Part shown: piece by piece, positions 3,111 through 22,067 of the stretch | Layout: the number at the start of each line of letters is the position of its first letter | Position numbering within the stretch: position 1 is the stretch's first letter | Assembly (NCBI GenBank): GCA_026770025.1 | Contig: JAMXDE010000037.1 | Coordinates: 558,001 to 622,000 of the forward strand | DNA length: 64,000 bases | Origin: Craspedostauros australis | Taxonomy: Eukaryota > Bacillariophyta > Bacillariophyceae > Mastogloiales > Achnanthaceae | Reading direction: 5' to 3' | The notes under the pieces: model-generated | Told to the model about the DNA's origin: nothing | Databases searched by the model: none | What the model saw: the letters and a program-made list of their open reading frames with translations, nothing else | Program-made: the position numbers and the translations under genes

Positions 3111-4106
3111 TGTTGTGATTCTTCTGGTTGTGGCTGTCTCTGTGGTTGGGCGATCAATGAGTGAGGAACCAAGTTAACCAGCTGGCATTGTTCGAAGTCT
3201 CTCTCCAGAAACAGAGAGAGTGTTGGTATCGTACTCTGTGGATAGACGCTTGATGGCAACGGTGATCATCAGTGACCGTTGTGGTTGTGACGATCTGTAT
3301 CAGTCTTCTGCAGCGATGTCTGCACCACCACCATGGCCATCGTCGTCACCACAAGTTCCATCGTTTCTCGATCGTTCCATGTTGATCACGGGACTGATAG
3401 TTGATTCATTCACTCGTGACGATTGTGCGAGGCGAGATGAGTCCTGGATACGTTTGCTGTCGATTGAAACACGAATGGTGTCACCATCATCATCACCATC
3501 GTCATGTTCTCGACAAAACGCGGGAAACGCCTCTGATTTCCACCGAAGAAGTCGTCGTGGTGGATTCGTCACATCGTGGATCCGCCCATTACGGTCGTTC
3601 AATGACATCCAACCGCCGAAGTACATAGTATGCATTCGTATGGCATACTGGTTGACTCCCCCAAGACCATCACAGAGGGATGTACTCATATTACACGAAC
3701 TATGGTATCACATGAAGAAGCGCGACTGCGCGGCGTGGCGAAGTTGGGCACGATCGAAGGTCGTATCGTGCAAGCGAGCGAGCTAGCCTGCTTCGGATCA
3801 TGATGTAGCTGTCCACGGTCGTACCATACCATACCATCGCATGGGATGCCATACACCGTGGTGGAACTGCGCAAGTCCATGCAAGCGTGTTGACTGACGA
3901 CACGTTGCTTCATGATCAATGCACAGGATCATGAAATGGAGGACAGCAAACTTGATCAGATGAGCTCACAATCGCCATCCAAGCGCAACTGATTTGGGAC
4001 CACATACGCTACCAGCACTACTCGTACGAGTGTACCGCCAATATCAACAATCACCAGCAGCACGGACAACAGCGACGACAGCAACGACAGCGACAACAAG
4101 AAAAGG
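3111..4106. other. Upstream module of LRR copy 2, duplicated in inverted form at 60613-61370
   Basis: From about 3400 to 4106 this sequence matches the reverse complement of the region upstream of the third LRR gene. Shared landmarks are GAGATGAGTCCTGGATACG, the block around CCCCCAAGACCATCACAG, and the stretch AGATGAGCTCACAATCGCCA. A palindromic box CTCGTACGAG lies at 4021-4030, about 77 bases before the start codon. Frames of 100-190 codons occur here but are not clearly coding. Bases 3111-3400 show nothing recognisable. Confidence 0.65.
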
Positions 4107-13821: not shown

Positions 13822-15223
13822 CATTGACGCGCGCATACATAACACACAACGTTAGAACAGCACCACGTTGATCTGAGAGTAGAATATCAACTATTACATT
13901 ACATAATACTCCAGACCAGTGTTTTGGTACAACAAAGTTTCCTCTTCCAATTCACGCAAACGTCTGAGGCACGGATGCGATCATCATAGTCTGACATGGT
14001 AGAATACTATTCTCAAGAGAGAGAGAGTGTGTGTGTGTGTGTGTGTCTGTATCTGTGTGTGTGTGTCTGTATCTGTGTGTGTGATAGTGTGATGCTATGA
14101 TGTTATACTGTGTGTAGGATGAGCATCGGAGAGGGTTATGAGGACAGGAGACGGATGGCTCTGTGTCTCCTGTGTGAGGGCCTTGCGGACCGTCTGTCCT
14201 TCGTCAGGCCCATGGGTATGCCAACAGTGTGTACTCCACTCAATGCCACCCTCGTGCATGCACCATGCAATGCTGTATTCAACCATTGACGCCAATGTGA
14301 ATAGGAACGGATGATGCGGCTAGACATACGAGTATGTTTGAACATGAAGATGCGTGATTCACAAGCGGGTAATCTCGTGCACATTGGAACAAGCATGAAG
14401 CACCATTGCTTCTGAACTAGTATAGTCTTCATATCAGGAGTCTCATTCGCTGTATGCATTGTCGGCAGTATTGCCTTGTTCATGAGTGTCTGGAAGCATC
14501 TGGACAGAACTCATCTCTGGAACTATTGTGGAGGGAAAGATACGCATTTGCAAATGTTGAAGTGAACAAGGGTCTTCGTCATCATTGTTGGTGCTGTTGG
14601 TGCTGGGTGCTCTTTGCGAGAGGGATTGCATCGCACGGCATCGCATTGAATGAGGTGGTTTCGAATGACGGCACAAGAAGATACACGAGTCTTTCGCTTC
14701 CTCCTCTCTCTTGAGACAGACTGAGAGACGCCATCGGTGGGAAGGTCGCGCATGCCTCTAAACTCCCAGAAAGGGTCGTTGTATGCACTGTTCTATTGAT
14801 AGTATGGCAGAAGAGGAATGCCGCAAAGCTCGCTCGATTCGAGCCGCACCTCAATGGACTCTATCAGACCTCGCGAATCCATGAAGGCTTTCACTTGCAC
14901 GCCTTGAGCAACCGCGCGGATTGATGTCGGCTGACACTGTCTTATACATACAGTCCATGACATTCCACGACACTGCCATCAAAGGTCTGTGTGTGCATGT
15001 ACTATTATACATGCAACGGTTTGAGCGCACGTAGTGGTGTGTCTTCAGCGCCGAGAACATCTGAGATGCCAAGATGCGATGACGCATCACGGGATCGCAA
15101 CTCTGGCCACCTCATCCATCAGCGAGCCAAGGCAGGATCAACCAACTTTCATGTTTTTATCGTTTGGCGCATTTCTCGGTGTATTTCCAGTCCAGGACTC
15201 GGGCATTCATTGATCACAGCACG
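13822..15223. other. Gap with (GA)n/(TG)n microsatellites
   Basis: A GA run passing into TG repeats with interspersed TCTGTATC units lies at about 14018-14085. A CATACGAGTATG box is near 14325. No gene is supported up to the transposon edge. Confidence 0.5.
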
Positions 15224-15266
15224 GGGAGTTGTCGGAAAAAGAGAAAATCGCGTTTTTTGTGTCGGA
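15224..15266 (+). repeat. Left terminal inverted repeat
   Basis: Begins GGGAGTTGTCGGAAAA, then GAGAAAA, a five-base variable spacer, a T run and a second GTCGGA. Pairs with 21225-21267. Confidence 0.72.
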
Positions 15267-16433
15267 GTCTGTTCACAAATGACAAGAAACTGCCAGTTGC
15301 CAGTTCGCCACACGTGATGGAGCGCACTCGATTCGAGATGTTCGACTCATACGACTACTACAAGAATGCCGAGTTGGTTCACGAGAGCAAACGATCATTT
15401 CTGAGTCCCGCATTGTGGCGTGTGTGGAGATGGGATTTCCTCGCTGCGGCGGTGTTTTGGTGTTGCTCATTCTCGTCACACTTTGCTGCGGTGGTCCGGA
15501 AAGCGCACTGTCGTCTTGGTTGGCAGAACAAGTCCTTGTCTTCTGGTTTGTTGGCTTGTACTACTGTTATATTGAACTCATCAAAAGCCCACCAGGGACG
15601 ATCGAGTATCGTTCCTGACCCCACGCCATTTACCTTCTTGACGATGTGATGCGTTTGATTCCCATCAGTGAGAGTTGCCTGTAGGGTAGAGTGCAAGGAA
15701 TCCACCAGCAGTATCGCACGGCAAAAAATCACCACAATGCGAGGTGGCCTGATGACCAACCACCAATCGTCACTCTTCACATCGTTATGCACTGGGTGTC
15801 ACTCTCATCCATCTTTGTGCAACATTGATAGCAGCAGACTCAAGGAGTAGCAGCCCAATCGATGTTGATAGAGTATGAAGCCTTGTCCCATGCAATGATG
15901 TCAGAGCTGATCACGCGCCAACACGCTACATTTTGTTGCAACATGTGCAGACCGCGCACGCACACCGCAGCATACTCCCTCTGGAGAGAGAGAGAGAGAG
16001 AGAGATCGTACCTCCATGGTCGCGTTGTTGAGTCTCGTATCGTTGAATACGAAGCAATGTTGTACACACTCAAGCGAAAGGGGTTCCTCGATTGGGTCTC
16101 CTTCGCTGCGCTTTGTTCTCGAGTTGACTGTCTGAAGAGCGCACACAATTTGGCGCACACAGAGTAGTGCAGCGCTTTCTCATCGTGCTGCGCTTACGTG
16201 CTCGTTGACGTCCTACCCATCCCAGAATTGCTGCATTGTCTCACAGTTTAGGACAAGGTGTGGTGTATCTGGTCAATAGAATAGTTGAGAATAGATCTAA
16301 TGCAATTATAGTATATGAGTGGTGGTGCAGTGCTCTTCTATTTGCCGGATTCGACGCGATTCAATCTCCTGGTTGCTGTTGCAAGATGCGTTCCAGACCA
16401 CGAATCCCTCAGTATTGTTGAAACTTGTATGAT

Positions 16434-17553
16434 CTAGTATTGTACTTGGAATAGAGAGTTGCCATGTTCGATTTGAAGCTGGGTTATAGTGACAATTGCT
16501 TTCATCACATGCTTGTGCAACATCAGGTCATGGCGGAAACGATGCTCCAGGATCTTCCAATTCTTGAAGCGGCCATTCACAGTCTCATGGCGAGCACGAG
16601 CTTGGCTTTTGGCTTGCTTCTCCGCCTCTGTAACAAAATCATCGGATGTTCGGACAGCTTCGTCACCGCGGTATCCACGATCAGCCTCCACCATCTCACC
16701 ATCATCCAAGTACTGTTTCAGCAAAGAGCGAAAGATCTTGAGGTCTGGGTGCCGCCCACAAGCAAACGGACCATTCATCCATACGATATCCCCCTTTTGG
16801 ATCGACACAGCGATCTCATATCTGATTCCAGCCGATCGGAACTTGTGCGAATACCACTTGCGGTCAAATGGGGTTGGCTCGTTGATCTTGAAATCAGTGC
16901 CATCAACAGTGACCAGGCACGATCTGTTCAAATCGCCTGAGTATCGGTTCTCCCACAGGATCTTTTCATGGTGACGTCGAAGAGAGACAAGCAGTGCAAA
17001 AGATGTGAGCTTGTTTGTTGCTGAATCAATTGTGAGTGAAATGCATTCCCCTTGGACTTACCACATCATTTTTCAAATCCGCTACAGCCTTGATGGCTGA
17101 CCAGATATGGAGCTTGAGAGTCTTATCTGTGGTCCGAAGGAAGACGCATGCCATGCGCACGGATGGGTAGTGCCGCATGTAGTAAAGGGCCCAAAGGAGA
17201 TGCTTTGGCTTCAGGTCCCCACGACGTGCTGCAAGTGCCCACAGCACAGAGCAGAGATGAGGCGAAATCCCAAATGCAACGGTAAAGTCCTCCCCGAATG
17301 CACCTGATCGGCATCGTAGATTGGTGATGCACTGACCAGGGGTGAGAAGGATGTAGCGCGCAAGATCAAGAAAGTCTTGCACGCTGCCGATGGAGTATCG
17401 CTGATCGTAGGCGCCATTCAACATTGGTTGGGTATTGGATCGAAGGAAGAAGTTGAAGCTGAAGTGATGGCTGTCCCTGCCTCTCCAAATCATGAAGGAT
17501 CGGCCAACTGACTTGGGAGAATCCGTGTCCAATGATGAAGTTGTTTGCTTCAT
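16434..17553 (-). CDS. DDE_Tnp_4 (Harbinger-type) transposase, two exons
   Basis: The model is complement of 17553-17062 joined to 16961-16434, 339 residues. The donor is GTAAGT directly after codon GTG, and the acceptor AG precedes ATC; the join gives NDV-ILWENRY, which runs into the catalytic domain. An RNase H-like fold is indicated by Asp184 (VTVDGTDF), Asp258 (VEADRGYRG) and Glu290 (ARARHETVNGRFK), the DDE triad of PIF/Harbinger and IS5-like enzymes. The N-terminal part has an FGISPHLCSVLWALA helix-turn region, probably DNA-binding. All three acidic residues are present and the frame is intact, so activity is possible. An extra upstream exon cannot be excluded. It should cut the element at the terminal repeats. 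Confidence 0.85.
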
Positions 17554-18763
17554 CTGTTCTCTTCTGTAAATGGTTGCTGGCTTGCACCAGTAGATGCAGC
17601 CACTGGCATGGAGCCATTCGCATCCCTCTACATTTGAATCGTTGGAAGCAGAGCATCACGTTGTGTTCGTAGCCTTTGGTTGATGTTGGCTGTGTGATGA
17701 TGGCGATGCGAAAACCGAAGAGCATGGTTCTGCGTTGACCAGAACATCCCAGTAGATGATGTCCTCCACCAAGAGACCACCTCCGGAAGGGTTGGATGGT
17801 GTTCTCCCTTTGTCTGAACTCAACGCAGGAGAGAGGAGCAAGAGATGTTGGTGCTCAACTTGAATCGTTGTTGTGAAGCACCACCCCTGGTTCGTGTGTC
17901 TGCTTCCATTGCATGTGGCAACGCAAATCGGAGAACAGGCCGATCGGCCAAAGCGCACCTCTGCGATGAGCTGTCGTGCGACAGGGTCAACATGCTGTTT
18001 GGTGGGACTGGCTTCGACACAAGCCAATGACAAGTAGAGTCGAGTACTCCACTCCACACCATTTCAAAAAGGCGTCCGACAAGTACACAATCCGCATCCG
18101 ACAAGTACACGATTTCCATCCGACAGATACTAAATAGGCAAGGAAAGTAACGTTTTTGTAACCGTCGGACTAGAACTTTTGACTCGTCGGACCAGAAATT
18201 GTGAACCACAAATTCTGTCTTTTGTTTTCTACGTGAGCTACTACTGACTGTTGCGTAGGAAAGCACACATGAGACTTGTCGGCGAAAACCAGGTACTTGT
18301 CCCCCCAAAAACGAATACCGTCGGTTCCTAAGAATTTCTTGTCGGAGGGTCAATATACAGATTTGAAGACATCATTCCAAGCGAGCCGTCCAAAGCACAT
18401 GAAGCTGAGTATGCTCACCAAATCCAACTGAGCTCCCACAAAAAGCAAATTCGACCCACGAGGAAGTTGCATTCCGAACCAAACAGGATGATGGCACCTC
18501 ATGCCCTCATGTACGCACCACGATCCTCCTCATCTGTGCAATACTGCTGATTGAAACAGGCAATGACGGATGTGACAGCCTGGATGCTTGCCGTAGTCTG
18601 GCTGCGTTGCTCCTACCTGCGTGTTTGAATTGAATAGACAGCTGATTGATCGATCGATGATACCATCTCCCAGCATTGGTCAAGTTGTTTGCAGCGTTGC
18701 ACTCGCAGTATCTGCTGTAACAGGGGTGTCCATCACAAGCCCACAATTCAGCTTACCTCCAAG
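17554..18763. promoter_or_regulatory. Central divergent promoter region of the transposon with GTCGG box arrays
   Basis: This region lies between the two divergent transposon genes. TCCGAC boxes at 18075, 18097 and 18119 are spaced by 22 bases within a near-identical 22-base unit (TCCGACAAGTACAC...). In the opposite orientation, GTCGG occurs at 18164 and 18186 (22 apart), then at 18278, 18299 (degenerate GTCCC), 18320 and 18341, spaced by 21. The same pentamer sits in both terminal repeats, so transposase binding is a reasonable inference. The frames that overlap here are not convincing. Confidence 0.6.
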
Positions 18764-20878
18764 ATGGCACAAATCCAAGTTGCTCGAGCTCAAAGGTGGT
18801 CACCCGCAGGAGATCACGCTGCTTACATCATCAAAGGCTTCATCTCCAATCCTCCTCGCTTCCAACCAACCAAGGAAGGCTTCTCGAACTTCTGGGAGTC
18901 GCACGTCGAGTGGCACAGTCTCTACAGCCAAAAGAACACGAAGAAGAATTTTCTCAATTGTTGGGCCCGTCTGCTGAAGTTCCTCGAGAGTGGAAAAGGT
19001 GCGTCCGTTTTGTGATGTTCTCTGTTGTGACTATTATTGTGATCGCCGACTGTCCTGACATGCTCGTGAACCAAATCTCTTCTCACACAGCTCTGATTTG
19101 CTTCGCTGTGCACAGGATTTGGATCTGATTTTCGCAAGAGGTGCGGTCTGGATTCCACAGAACGCCTCGCAGAGTTGCGTCAAGAACGCGGGATCAACCT
19201 CAACTACCGACCAGCACAAGGCGCTGTCAACAACACCAATGCCAATCACCCTCCTGCTGCTGATCTTGCTCGCGGTTCTTCTTCGGATGACGACGAAAGT
19301 TACCTTCCTTCTGTTCATTCTGATCGTCTCGGTTCTGCTGTATCTTCAGACAGCTTGGAGCTCGACCCAGGATTCGTTGACGACGATCTCTCTCAAGCTA
19401 CCCCACCATTCATTATGCCTCGTCGTGGAGTTCAAGGCCCTCGTGGACCCCCTGTCCGAGACGTGAACAAACCAACACCTCCTCCTGCCCCCAAGCGCGA
19501 CGCCACACCCAACGACAAGACCATCGTGGATGCCATGGGCAAGATGGGAATCCGTAGTGCAGATCGCGCCATGAGCCCTGCACTGGACATGGTCAAGCTC
19601 GGATCATTCACTGAACGTGCTTTTGATCCATTGACAGCTGCAAATGGAACAGGGCGCTACCGGGAGGGGATTCACATGTTTGTGGTCCTGGACGCAAAGG
19701 TGGATCCAGATTCTGTGGCACTGTCTACAGAGGATGAAGGATGGACACTGAAGCTGACCTACAAAGTGCCAAAGATGTACTTCACAGCAGAGTGCATCTA
19801 CGGAGTCTATGGTTATGATAAGGATTTTTCTACAAGCCTTGCGGCAGCTAAGAATTATTTCCAGGACCTCGCTCGAAAGGTCACCGATGATGCAGGCGAG
19901 CTCGTCGTCAGCTGCCAGTTCAGCCTCCCAAGGAAGATCGACAGTCTCTTCCGCAATGTCAAGACCAAGGACCTCGAGGAGCCCAACTTTGAGATAGTTG
20001 AGAACTATCTCGGCACCACCACACTGGTGACATTCTGCTTTTTTCAAGAGAGCTTCAATCAGCAGCAGTTTGGGACGGCTGGTCGTCGTGGCGTCCAAGG
20101 CTTGGATGGGATGGTGTACTCCTTCAATCCCACCATGCCTTTGCCTGCAGCCCCAACCGCACAAGGATTCGGATCCCACCCCTTTGGCCATCCTGCTCCA
20201 ACCCTACCAGGCGGCGCCAGCGGCAACCATCATCCTGCTCCGTTTGGATCTCCGATTCCCAATTCTGGTGGCGGGTTTGCCAGCCCTGCAGCAACCACCC
20301 AGAATGCTGCCCAGACTGCTGCGATTCGCCAGCAGATGGAGCGCGAGGCCGCGGCCCAAGTTGCTCGAGCGCAAGAGCTAGCTCGCAAGGAACGGGCCGA
20401 ATGCGAGGCTCTCTTGCGTGCGGCAAAAGAGCGCTCCCAGCTTGATGCCCAGGCCAAGGCCCGAATTGAGCATGAAGCTCGAACCCAGTTCGAGGCCATG
20501 CGCAACGAAGCTCTTGCTCGTGAGCAGCATGCGCAGGCCCGGCTGGCTGAGCTTGAGGCGCAGCTCCTTCAAGCTCACACCAACGCATCCCTGGCTGCCC
20601 ACAGCTCCAGCGGGTTGCCTGGTGGTGGCGTTCCCGACCCAGTCTGGAGCTCTTCTCAATCCAGCAGTGCTGGGAGCTCCATCCCCACTGTCGAGATGGA
20701 GATGACACCTCTGACGGGTTCTGTGCGCCCCCGCAATGGTGAGGACGCCCCGCGTCGTGATGATGTGCTCCGCCTGAAAGTGGATGAGGTATCAGGCGGG
20801 GCTGCAGCAGGAATGCCTGATGGAGTGAATGGCAGTGTTGTGTCTGCCGATGCAACAGGGCACACTGTGAACGCCTAA
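18764..20878 (+). CDS. Transposon-associated second protein of unknown family, two exons
   Basis: The model is join(18764-18998, 19116-20878), 665 residues. The donor GTGCGT follows AAAAG and the acceptor is CACAG; the junction codon gives Gly and the frame continues FGSDFRKRCG. Residues 1-110 are rich in Trp, Phe and basic residues and could bind DNA. Residues 120-220 are low-complexity (Ser/Asp/Pro). About 259-385 is a compact domain starting RYREGIHMFVVLDAKV, not recognised. Then a Gly/Pro-rich linker, an Ala/Glu/Arg coiled coil at about 479-567, and a disordered tail. Its position opposite the transposase within shared inverted repeats recalls the Myb-like second gene of Harbinger elements, but no Myb motif is clear. 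It could instead be captured host sequence. Confidence 0.7.
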
Positions 20879-21224
20879 GTGCAGCGCAACGCAGCACACC
20901 GCATCAGCCTGGATGCGTCAACAACAACAACAACAAAATCACCGCATCAGCGTGAATGCGTCAACACCAGAAACATCACACGAGAAGCAGCAAAGCACAC
21001 AGAAATCACAGACAGAGAGCACTACTCCCCAGAGTAGATCACACAGAATAACGACAACAGTACGAACAAAACCAAAACAAACACCAAAAAACAACGAAAA
21101 CAACAGAAACAGAAACACAAAGGAGAGAACTAACTAAGTACTCAATAGTAGTAGGAACAAACAAAGTACCATGATGGGTGCAAACCACATATTTATGTCT
21201 AATCAAGTACTTAGTCTTGCCAAT

Positions 21225-21267
21225 TCCGACATAAAAAGTAAGCTTTTCTCCTTTTCCGACAACTCCC
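21225..21267 (-). repeat. Right terminal inverted repeat
   Basis: Reverse complement begins GGGAGTTGTCGGAAAAGGAG and has a second GTCGG 30 bases inward, as on the left. Confidence 0.72.
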
Positions 21268-22067
21268 GGAACAAAGAAGCATCTTCTGTGAGCGAAATGC
21301 AACGTCGATTAAGCCATTGCAAACCCATTGACAAAGACGAATAGGCCCAATCAAAGAAACCAATAAGTTCTGTTGCGCGTCCGCTCACAAAATAAGTCGG
21401 ATTCTTCTGCTCACATTGGAGCTTGTGTGTGCCTTCCGAGAGCAACGCTTTTGCTTTTCGCACAACACGACAGCCAAATCAATCCGACACTGTGCGTTTC
21501 GGAACATTGCGATAGTTCCAAAATCTACCTTTGTCGTGACACGCAGTTGCAGACCGCACAACGGGATCCAGCAGTGCTGTCCCACGAGCTGCCCTACTAA
21601 AATACCCGTTCCTTCTCACATGTGGTGTTTGCGACCTCCGTTTGTATCGCTGCCTTTCGGTTTGGTGTGTGGCAGTGGATGACTCACCATCATGGGATTG
21701 ATGACTGGCTGATAACGGACGTCTCCCTTCACTCTGATCCGGTCGTGGCTGCTGCCCCAAGCCCCATCCAGAGAGAGAGAGAGAGAGAGGGACACCACGC
21801 GGGCGGGCAACATAAGACAAGGCGACACTTTCTGCTTTCCTCTTGGCTCTCCTTTTCTCACAATTCCACAAACACAAACTTTTGGCTCCAACGTCCCACG
21901 AGCCAACACGTACGATTACTCGACGAGTATTTGCAAACGAGTGCCATACCATAGTCAATATACTCACAGCACAATACGTACACTCGACTCTACTCGACTC
22001 GAATCGACCATCCCATCTTCGCATACCCACAAGCATCACACCATACACAGGAGAGGATAGTTGGAGA
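21268..22067. promoter_or_regulatory. Region upstream of the 22068 gene with palindromic CGAGTA boxes
   Basis: No gene is seen. A (GA)n run lies at 21772-21790. Close to the next start codon (21908-22000) is a cluster of CGTACGATTACTCG, CGACGAGTATT and repeated ACTCGACTCTACTCGACTCG, resembling the CGAGTA boxes before other genes. Probable promoter. Confidence 0.4.

Follow-up and report, generated by a model that had tools for sequence, protein, structure and literature searches.

We analysed a 64,000-nucleotide stretch of the genome of the alga Craspedostauros australis (assembly GCA_026770025.1, contig JAMXDE010000037.1, positions 558,001 to 622,000; hereafter the window) and found in it a two-gene element of 6042 bp, whose limits could be set to the base at positions 15225-21266. 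The element is a member of a real and recently active transposon family of autonomous type. Judged from sequence, we put at about 70% the probability that it is an autonomous transposon of the PHIS (PIF/Harbinger-ISL2EU-Spy) type, in which a partner protein binds the pentamer GTCGG, hereafter the box. Its interest lies in this unexplained second protein and in a box that is common to the ends and the promoter.

Ends, target sites and recent movement

No inverted repeat in the region is longer than the one formed by the ends of the element (43 nt, 84% complementary, arms 5958 nt apart), in line with the original prediction of inverted ends about 6 kb apart. The left terminal inverted repeat (15225..15266, plus strand) starts with GGAGTTGTCGG and contains GTCGG at 15231-15235 and 15261-15265. 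The right one (21225..21266, minus strand) carries two minus-strand boxes at 21226-21230 and 21256-21260. Box starts at 15231 and 15261, and complement starts at 21226 and 21256, give the same 30-bp spacing at both ends that had been claimed before. Reading of the flanks revealed a perfect 3-bp target site duplication, CGG, at 15222..15224 and 21267..21269; four other copies of the family were compared with gap-free empty sites. The prediction had reported no target duplication. It had placed the tips at 15224 and 21267, each one base too far out, and for this reason the duplication was overlooked.

Throughout the main family the tips read GGAGTTG...CAACTCC, and matching 3-bp duplications were present in all 25 copies with both ends examined, 24 of them of the form CNG (CAG 9, CTG 9, CCG 4 and CGG 2, with one GTG; grouped, CWG 18, CSG 6 and GTG 1). 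The 22 copies of about 6 kb all have three identical bases on both outer sides of the tips, and the duplications also match in three copies with inserts or rearrangements (CTG, CTG and CCG). Among the 22 copies, the middle base is preceded by C in 21 and followed by G in 22, and nothing else is preferred. The GTG copy indicates that the outer G and C are part of the duplication and lie outside the element. A sister family, whose transposase is 81% identical, has 3-bp duplications in 5/5 copies examined. Two more distant families, groups B and C (L036-L039), resemble these in their tips, GGAGTCATCG, and show 3-bp duplications in 4/4 copies (CAA, CAG, CTG, CAG).

A search of the whole genome (74.8 Mb, 90 contigs) recovered 25 full-length matches to the left end (201 bases) and 28 matches of at least 94% identity to the right end. 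Exact copies of the 15-base tip number 63, against about 0.14 expected by simple arithmetic. As many as 56 of these tips form 28 inward-facing pairs, 26 of which span 6031-6083 bp, so that the ends do not behave as unrelated solitary repeats. Tips with up to two mismatches were found at 118+101 places versus 109+96 in a reversed control, and as no excess stands out, only the exact matches carry weight. The 25 transposases nearest to that of the window are those of the 25 end-bearing loci, as would be expected if the proposed ends define a family, and none of them lacks these ends.

For 22 of the 25 insertions, the 60-base flanks were joined with a single target copy between them, and the joins were searched against the genome. 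At least four of the 22 joins had full-length matches elsewhere. For each of these, one place was aligned and proved to be a gap-free paralogous empty site with a single CNG; over 200 bases the identities were 200/200 (L009), 200/200 (L011), 198/200 (L028) and 186/200 (L020). These counts are a lower bound, since the best 40 of 392 candidate matches were scored; the remaining 18 joins had no full-length empty site among the matches listed. In these four copies, the alignment with empty sites that the prediction had proposed fixes both the tips and the 3-bp duplication. The empty sites show precise insertion with a 3-bp duplication, not excision.

The copies differ in age. Five of them (L009, L011, L012, L013 and L014), at five places, show zero differences over 6042 bases, which points to very recent movement. 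Two further copies are 1 base off these five and the window copy 4 bases off, while the others fall into older subgroups whose identity to the window copy is 95.8-98.4%. Three copies with matching target duplications have 12.96 kb (L026), 6.84 kb (L031) and 15.34 kb (L032) between their tips. In L026 and L032, homology to the element ends at element positions 3182 and 2313, respectively, within the stretch read, indicating large inserts inside the element. Fragments such as C46 and C3 exist as well. The L011 insertion sits in many-times-repeated sequence, and the listed repeats lie close to other DDE transposase genes (a 273-aa frame; L046), which suggests that L011 is nested in another transposon family.

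Two divergent genes under purifying selection

The transposase is encoded on the minus strand by two exons and comprises 296 aa. Exon 1 (17062..17424) begins at a methionine common to the sister family, and exon 2 (16434..16961, stop codon included) encodes the catalytic core with D141, D215 and E247, matched by Pfam DDE_Tnp_4. Between them lies a 100-nt intron (16962..17061, GTAAGT...GAAAAG), whose place and length are the same in the sister copies L034 and L035. A splice with its acceptor at 17010 was rejected, as it leads to stops or frameshifts in 10/22 copies and the sister family supports 16962. The triad had been described as D184-D258-E290: all three residues are present, and their numbering changes with a start 43 codons further in. 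The longer open frame of that earlier reading reaches a methionine at 17553, and its additional N-terminus is interrupted by a frameshift near 17435 in 7/22 copies. The later methionine, where clear similarity to the sister protein begins, was therefore preferred.

Pfam comparison gave DDE_Tnp_4 (E 2.8e-11, residues 140-280) and DDE_Tnp_1 (E 8.7e-8, above its cut-off). We take DDE_Tnp_4 to be the Pfam mark of the PHIS superfamily, and the match supplies the alignment of the catalytic region by which the superfamily in the wide sense is recognised. No DNA-binding domain was found in the transposase N-terminus in Pfam. Similarity to two IS5 models of NCBIfam was weak (E 1.1e-4 and 4.7e-3), with 21.7 and 16.4 bits, far under the curated cut-off of 140, and no relative was confirmed in a prokaryote scan. 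In the PHROGs library, a transposase carried by a phage was matched weakly (E 4.5e-5). A bacterial or viral origin of close relatives was rejected, as none was confirmed in the prokaryote and viral scans, where records near this genome are possibly absent. Searches of solved structures reached at best E 0.38 for the transposase and 0.69 for the second protein, and an Rfam scan of the window gave no match.

The second gene lies on the plus strand, head-to-head with the transposase gene. Its exon 1 (18764..18998) encodes the best conserved part of the protein, presumed to be the DNA-binding region; a 117-nt intron follows (18999..19115, GTGCGT...ACAG), and exon 2 (19116..20878) encodes a linker, a conserved core, a proline/glycine-rich stretch and an Ala/Glu/Arg-rich probable coiled coil. 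The product has 666 aa (670 aa in some copies). The first 79 residues are invariant across 22 places. The N-terminal region was detected at 43 places, 41 of which share an element with a transposase or lie within about 4.5 kb of one, among the best 150 of 357 candidates; C46 and C4:2963636 had no transposase partner among those 150. No Pfam match to YqaJ was found in the second protein, and similarity of its relatives remained sub-threshold, e.g., Phage_int_SAM_5, which two relatives of the N-terminal region matched at E 0.12 and 0.01.

Both genes are intact in the window, as predicted, and open in 22/22 copies of about 6 kb. For the transposase, dN/dS was 0.09 and 0.10 against the sister copies L034 and L035, and 0.03-0.05 when the window copy was compared with L017 or L030. 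The corresponding values for the second gene were 0.20 and 0.21, and 0.09-0.10. Both genes are thus under purifying selection. Together, these data support the earlier proposal of a candidate autonomous two-gene DDE transposon, as an autonomous type defined by these ends.

A box shared by ends and promoter

The divergent promoter region between the two genes (18076..18345) contains eight GTCGG boxes, starting at 18076, 18098 and 18120 on the minus strand and at 18164, 18186, 18278, 18320 and 18341 on the plus strand, some of them as 22-bp tandem units. Eight boxes in 311 bp exceed the maximum of 5 seen in 10,000 mononucleotide shuffles, and equally long stretches of the window beyond the element likewise reach at most 5. 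In the sister family the promoter boxes again number eight, and seven of them align with those of the window. Between the window and the sister family, box bases in the promoter are conserved at 38/40 positions versus 153/256 around them (Fisher p 3.7e-6). The sister family keeps both end box pairs at 30-bp spacing, whereas the bases between them have changed.

According to the parts of PMC9710019 and PMC2836001 available to us, the PIF/Harbinger elements Harbinger3_DR and Ping/Pong require both of their proteins, and the Myb-like protein of Harbinger3_DR binds a 9-bp subterminal motif as well as the transposase. The DDE transposase of the present element would cut at the tips and join the element into CNG sites via a staggered 3-bp cut. 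The second protein would bind GTCGG through its conserved N-terminal region and bring the transposase to the ends, in the manner of the Myb-like protein of Harbinger3_DR. Bound to the promoter boxes, it might also set the expression of both genes.

Several observations weigh against this reading. The second protein, searched whole and in pieces, has no Pfam match up to E 10, Myb/SANT included. The limits of the promoter region were drawn with the boxes already known, and the test of conservation compares a single pair of families. A start at the methionine of the longer transposase frame would leave 7/22 copies frameshifted. Finally, the promoter arrays of groups B and C consist of TGTCGT in 7-11 copies, which occurs at the tips 0, 1, 0 and 0 times; only the weaker ATCGYAAAA is found in both their promoters and tips (2 and 2). 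As TGTCGT does not recur at the tips, the idea of a shared box is strong in the main family and its sister but weak in the more distant ones. This speaks against a general rule, and the odds of a regulatory reading are accordingly kept low.

A more far-reaching proposal, which we consider rather doubtful, is that the element represents a separate algal PHIS lineage that targets CNG and carries a new family of DNA-binding proteins. Such a protein might read one and the same box at the end pairs, where a 30-bp distance would serve complex assembly, and in the largely 22-bp-phased promoter array, where it would serve dose sensing; the element could in this way count its copies and limit its own expression.

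The boxes might also be read by another protein. An account that we regard as unlikely holds that the transposase itself binds the GTCGG ends, that those of the promoter act as decoys or as sites where the transposase represses expression, and that the second protein is otherwise employed (nuclear import, target choice or silencing escape). The boxes of promoter and ends do match, and no DNA-binding domain was recognised in the second protein. However, the transposase N-terminus has none in Pfam either, and in the PIF/Harbinger elements studied in PMC9710019 and PMC2836001, as far as the parts seen describe them, DNA binding resides in the second protein. Somewhat less probable still, the promoter array may serve a host transcription factor, with a likeness to the end boxes that arises from shortness and similarity only. 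Such a factor would suit groups B and C, whose tips do not repeat the TGTCGT of their promoter arrays, but in the main and sister families GTCGGA clusters more than any other hexamer and is also the commonest hexamer of the ends, and the density of promoter boxes is matched neither in shuffles nor elsewhere in the window. The idea of immobile relics, or of a segmental duplication carrying the ends by chance, as the enlarged or rearranged copies and the fragments might hint, has almost no probability left and is refuted as to past mobility by the different flanks with matching duplications at 25 sites, the empty sites and the five identical copies.

Relationship to known groups and to other families in the genome

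We regard a PHIS-type transposon with a box-binding partner protein as the best reading of the element and compared it with the named groups of the superfamily. In the passages of PMC4482050 available to us, groups are set by their target duplications (TWA, AT, none, ANT, CWG and TNA), and the role of the superfamily's second protein is termed unknown. None of the 34 duplications examined was TWA, as in the PIF/Harbinger group, or ANT, as in the Pangu group, with which the element shares a second open reading frame without known motif. The duplications examined also did not show the TNA within C|TNA|G of the NuwaII group. Their 3-bp CNG type and the missing YqaJ match differ from ISL2EU, which has a 2-bp AT duplication and a YqaJ second protein, and their presence differs from Spy, which has no target duplication.

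Based on target site and gene content, NuwaI appears to be the nearest named group, without an exact fit. Common to both are a 3-bp CNG-type target, ends starting with GG, and a DDE transposase with a second gene (PMC4482050, in part). NuwaI targets CWG, whereas the range here overlaps with this (18/25) and is wider, including CSG in 6/25 and GTG in 1/25 copies; the tip, delimited by a duplication that empty sites set, is GGAGTTG and not the usual GGG; and no Myb/SANT match was obtained for the second protein. In the parts of PMC4482050 seen, NuwaI is reported from animals only, while the host here is an alga. Given the wider CNG target, the GGA tip and the absence of a Myb/SANT match, we filed the element in no named group.

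Judged by naming habits, PIF_Harbinger-1_PI would come from an oomycete and Harbinger4_TP from a diatom. Together with Harbinger-29_CCri, these two families are placed in a lineage near Nuwa with 3-bp duplications in the parts of PMC12730594 seen, a feature shared with the present element in a comparison by description only. If the presumed hosts are right, Harbinger4_TP and PIF_Harbinger-1_PI may be its nearest relatives and the element may be an ordinary member of that lineage rather than of the new Harbinger-like lineage that the prediction had considered. The Harbinger elements of the brown alga Ectocarpus are likewise two-gene, Harbinger-type elements of an algal host, but the autonomous ones, as given in the parts of PMC12477816 seen, are all tail-to-tail with ANT or TNA targets, in contrast to the head-to-head genes and CNG targets found here. 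Harbinger3_DR, Ping and Pong share the two-protein design, a subterminal binding motif and a 3-bp duplication, whereas the Ping/mPing duplication is TAA and their second protein is Myb-like, with no such match here (PMC9710019, PMC2836001, both in part). A literature search covering titles, abstract openings and a few passages found no CNG-targeting Harbinger-type family in an alga.

The genome contains a large expansion of DDE_Tnp_4 genes, with 150 scored of 227 candidates for the Pfam model and 150 of 357 for the window protein, and many transposase families of 50-60% identity. In L047, close to another transposase gene, GGAGTT is preceded by CAG at two positions (708 and 2981), which suggests from this one copy that CNG targeting and GGAGTT tips reach further families. 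In group C (L038 and L039), both element genes contain numerous changes and stops, and one part of the element is inverted relative to group B. GA dinucleotide runs lie inside the element (15992-16005) and just right of it (21771-21790), and GT/GA runs of differing length occur in the intergenic part of the sister copies. The genome also holds at least 61 matches to PF00504 (light-harvesting), and the one compared resembles solved light-harvesting proteins, fucoxanthin-chlorophyll proteins included, which points to an alga of the red-plastid line, perhaps a stramenopile.

With identical, intact copies in a compact algal genome, the element is a promising candidate for a functional native transposon, which could serve in algae as a tool for mutagenesis and gene delivery. 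Through the shared box it becomes directly testable whether the second protein of this superfamily also regulates the element. Moreover, an element that targets CNG outside animals would extend the range of targets known for the superfamily.

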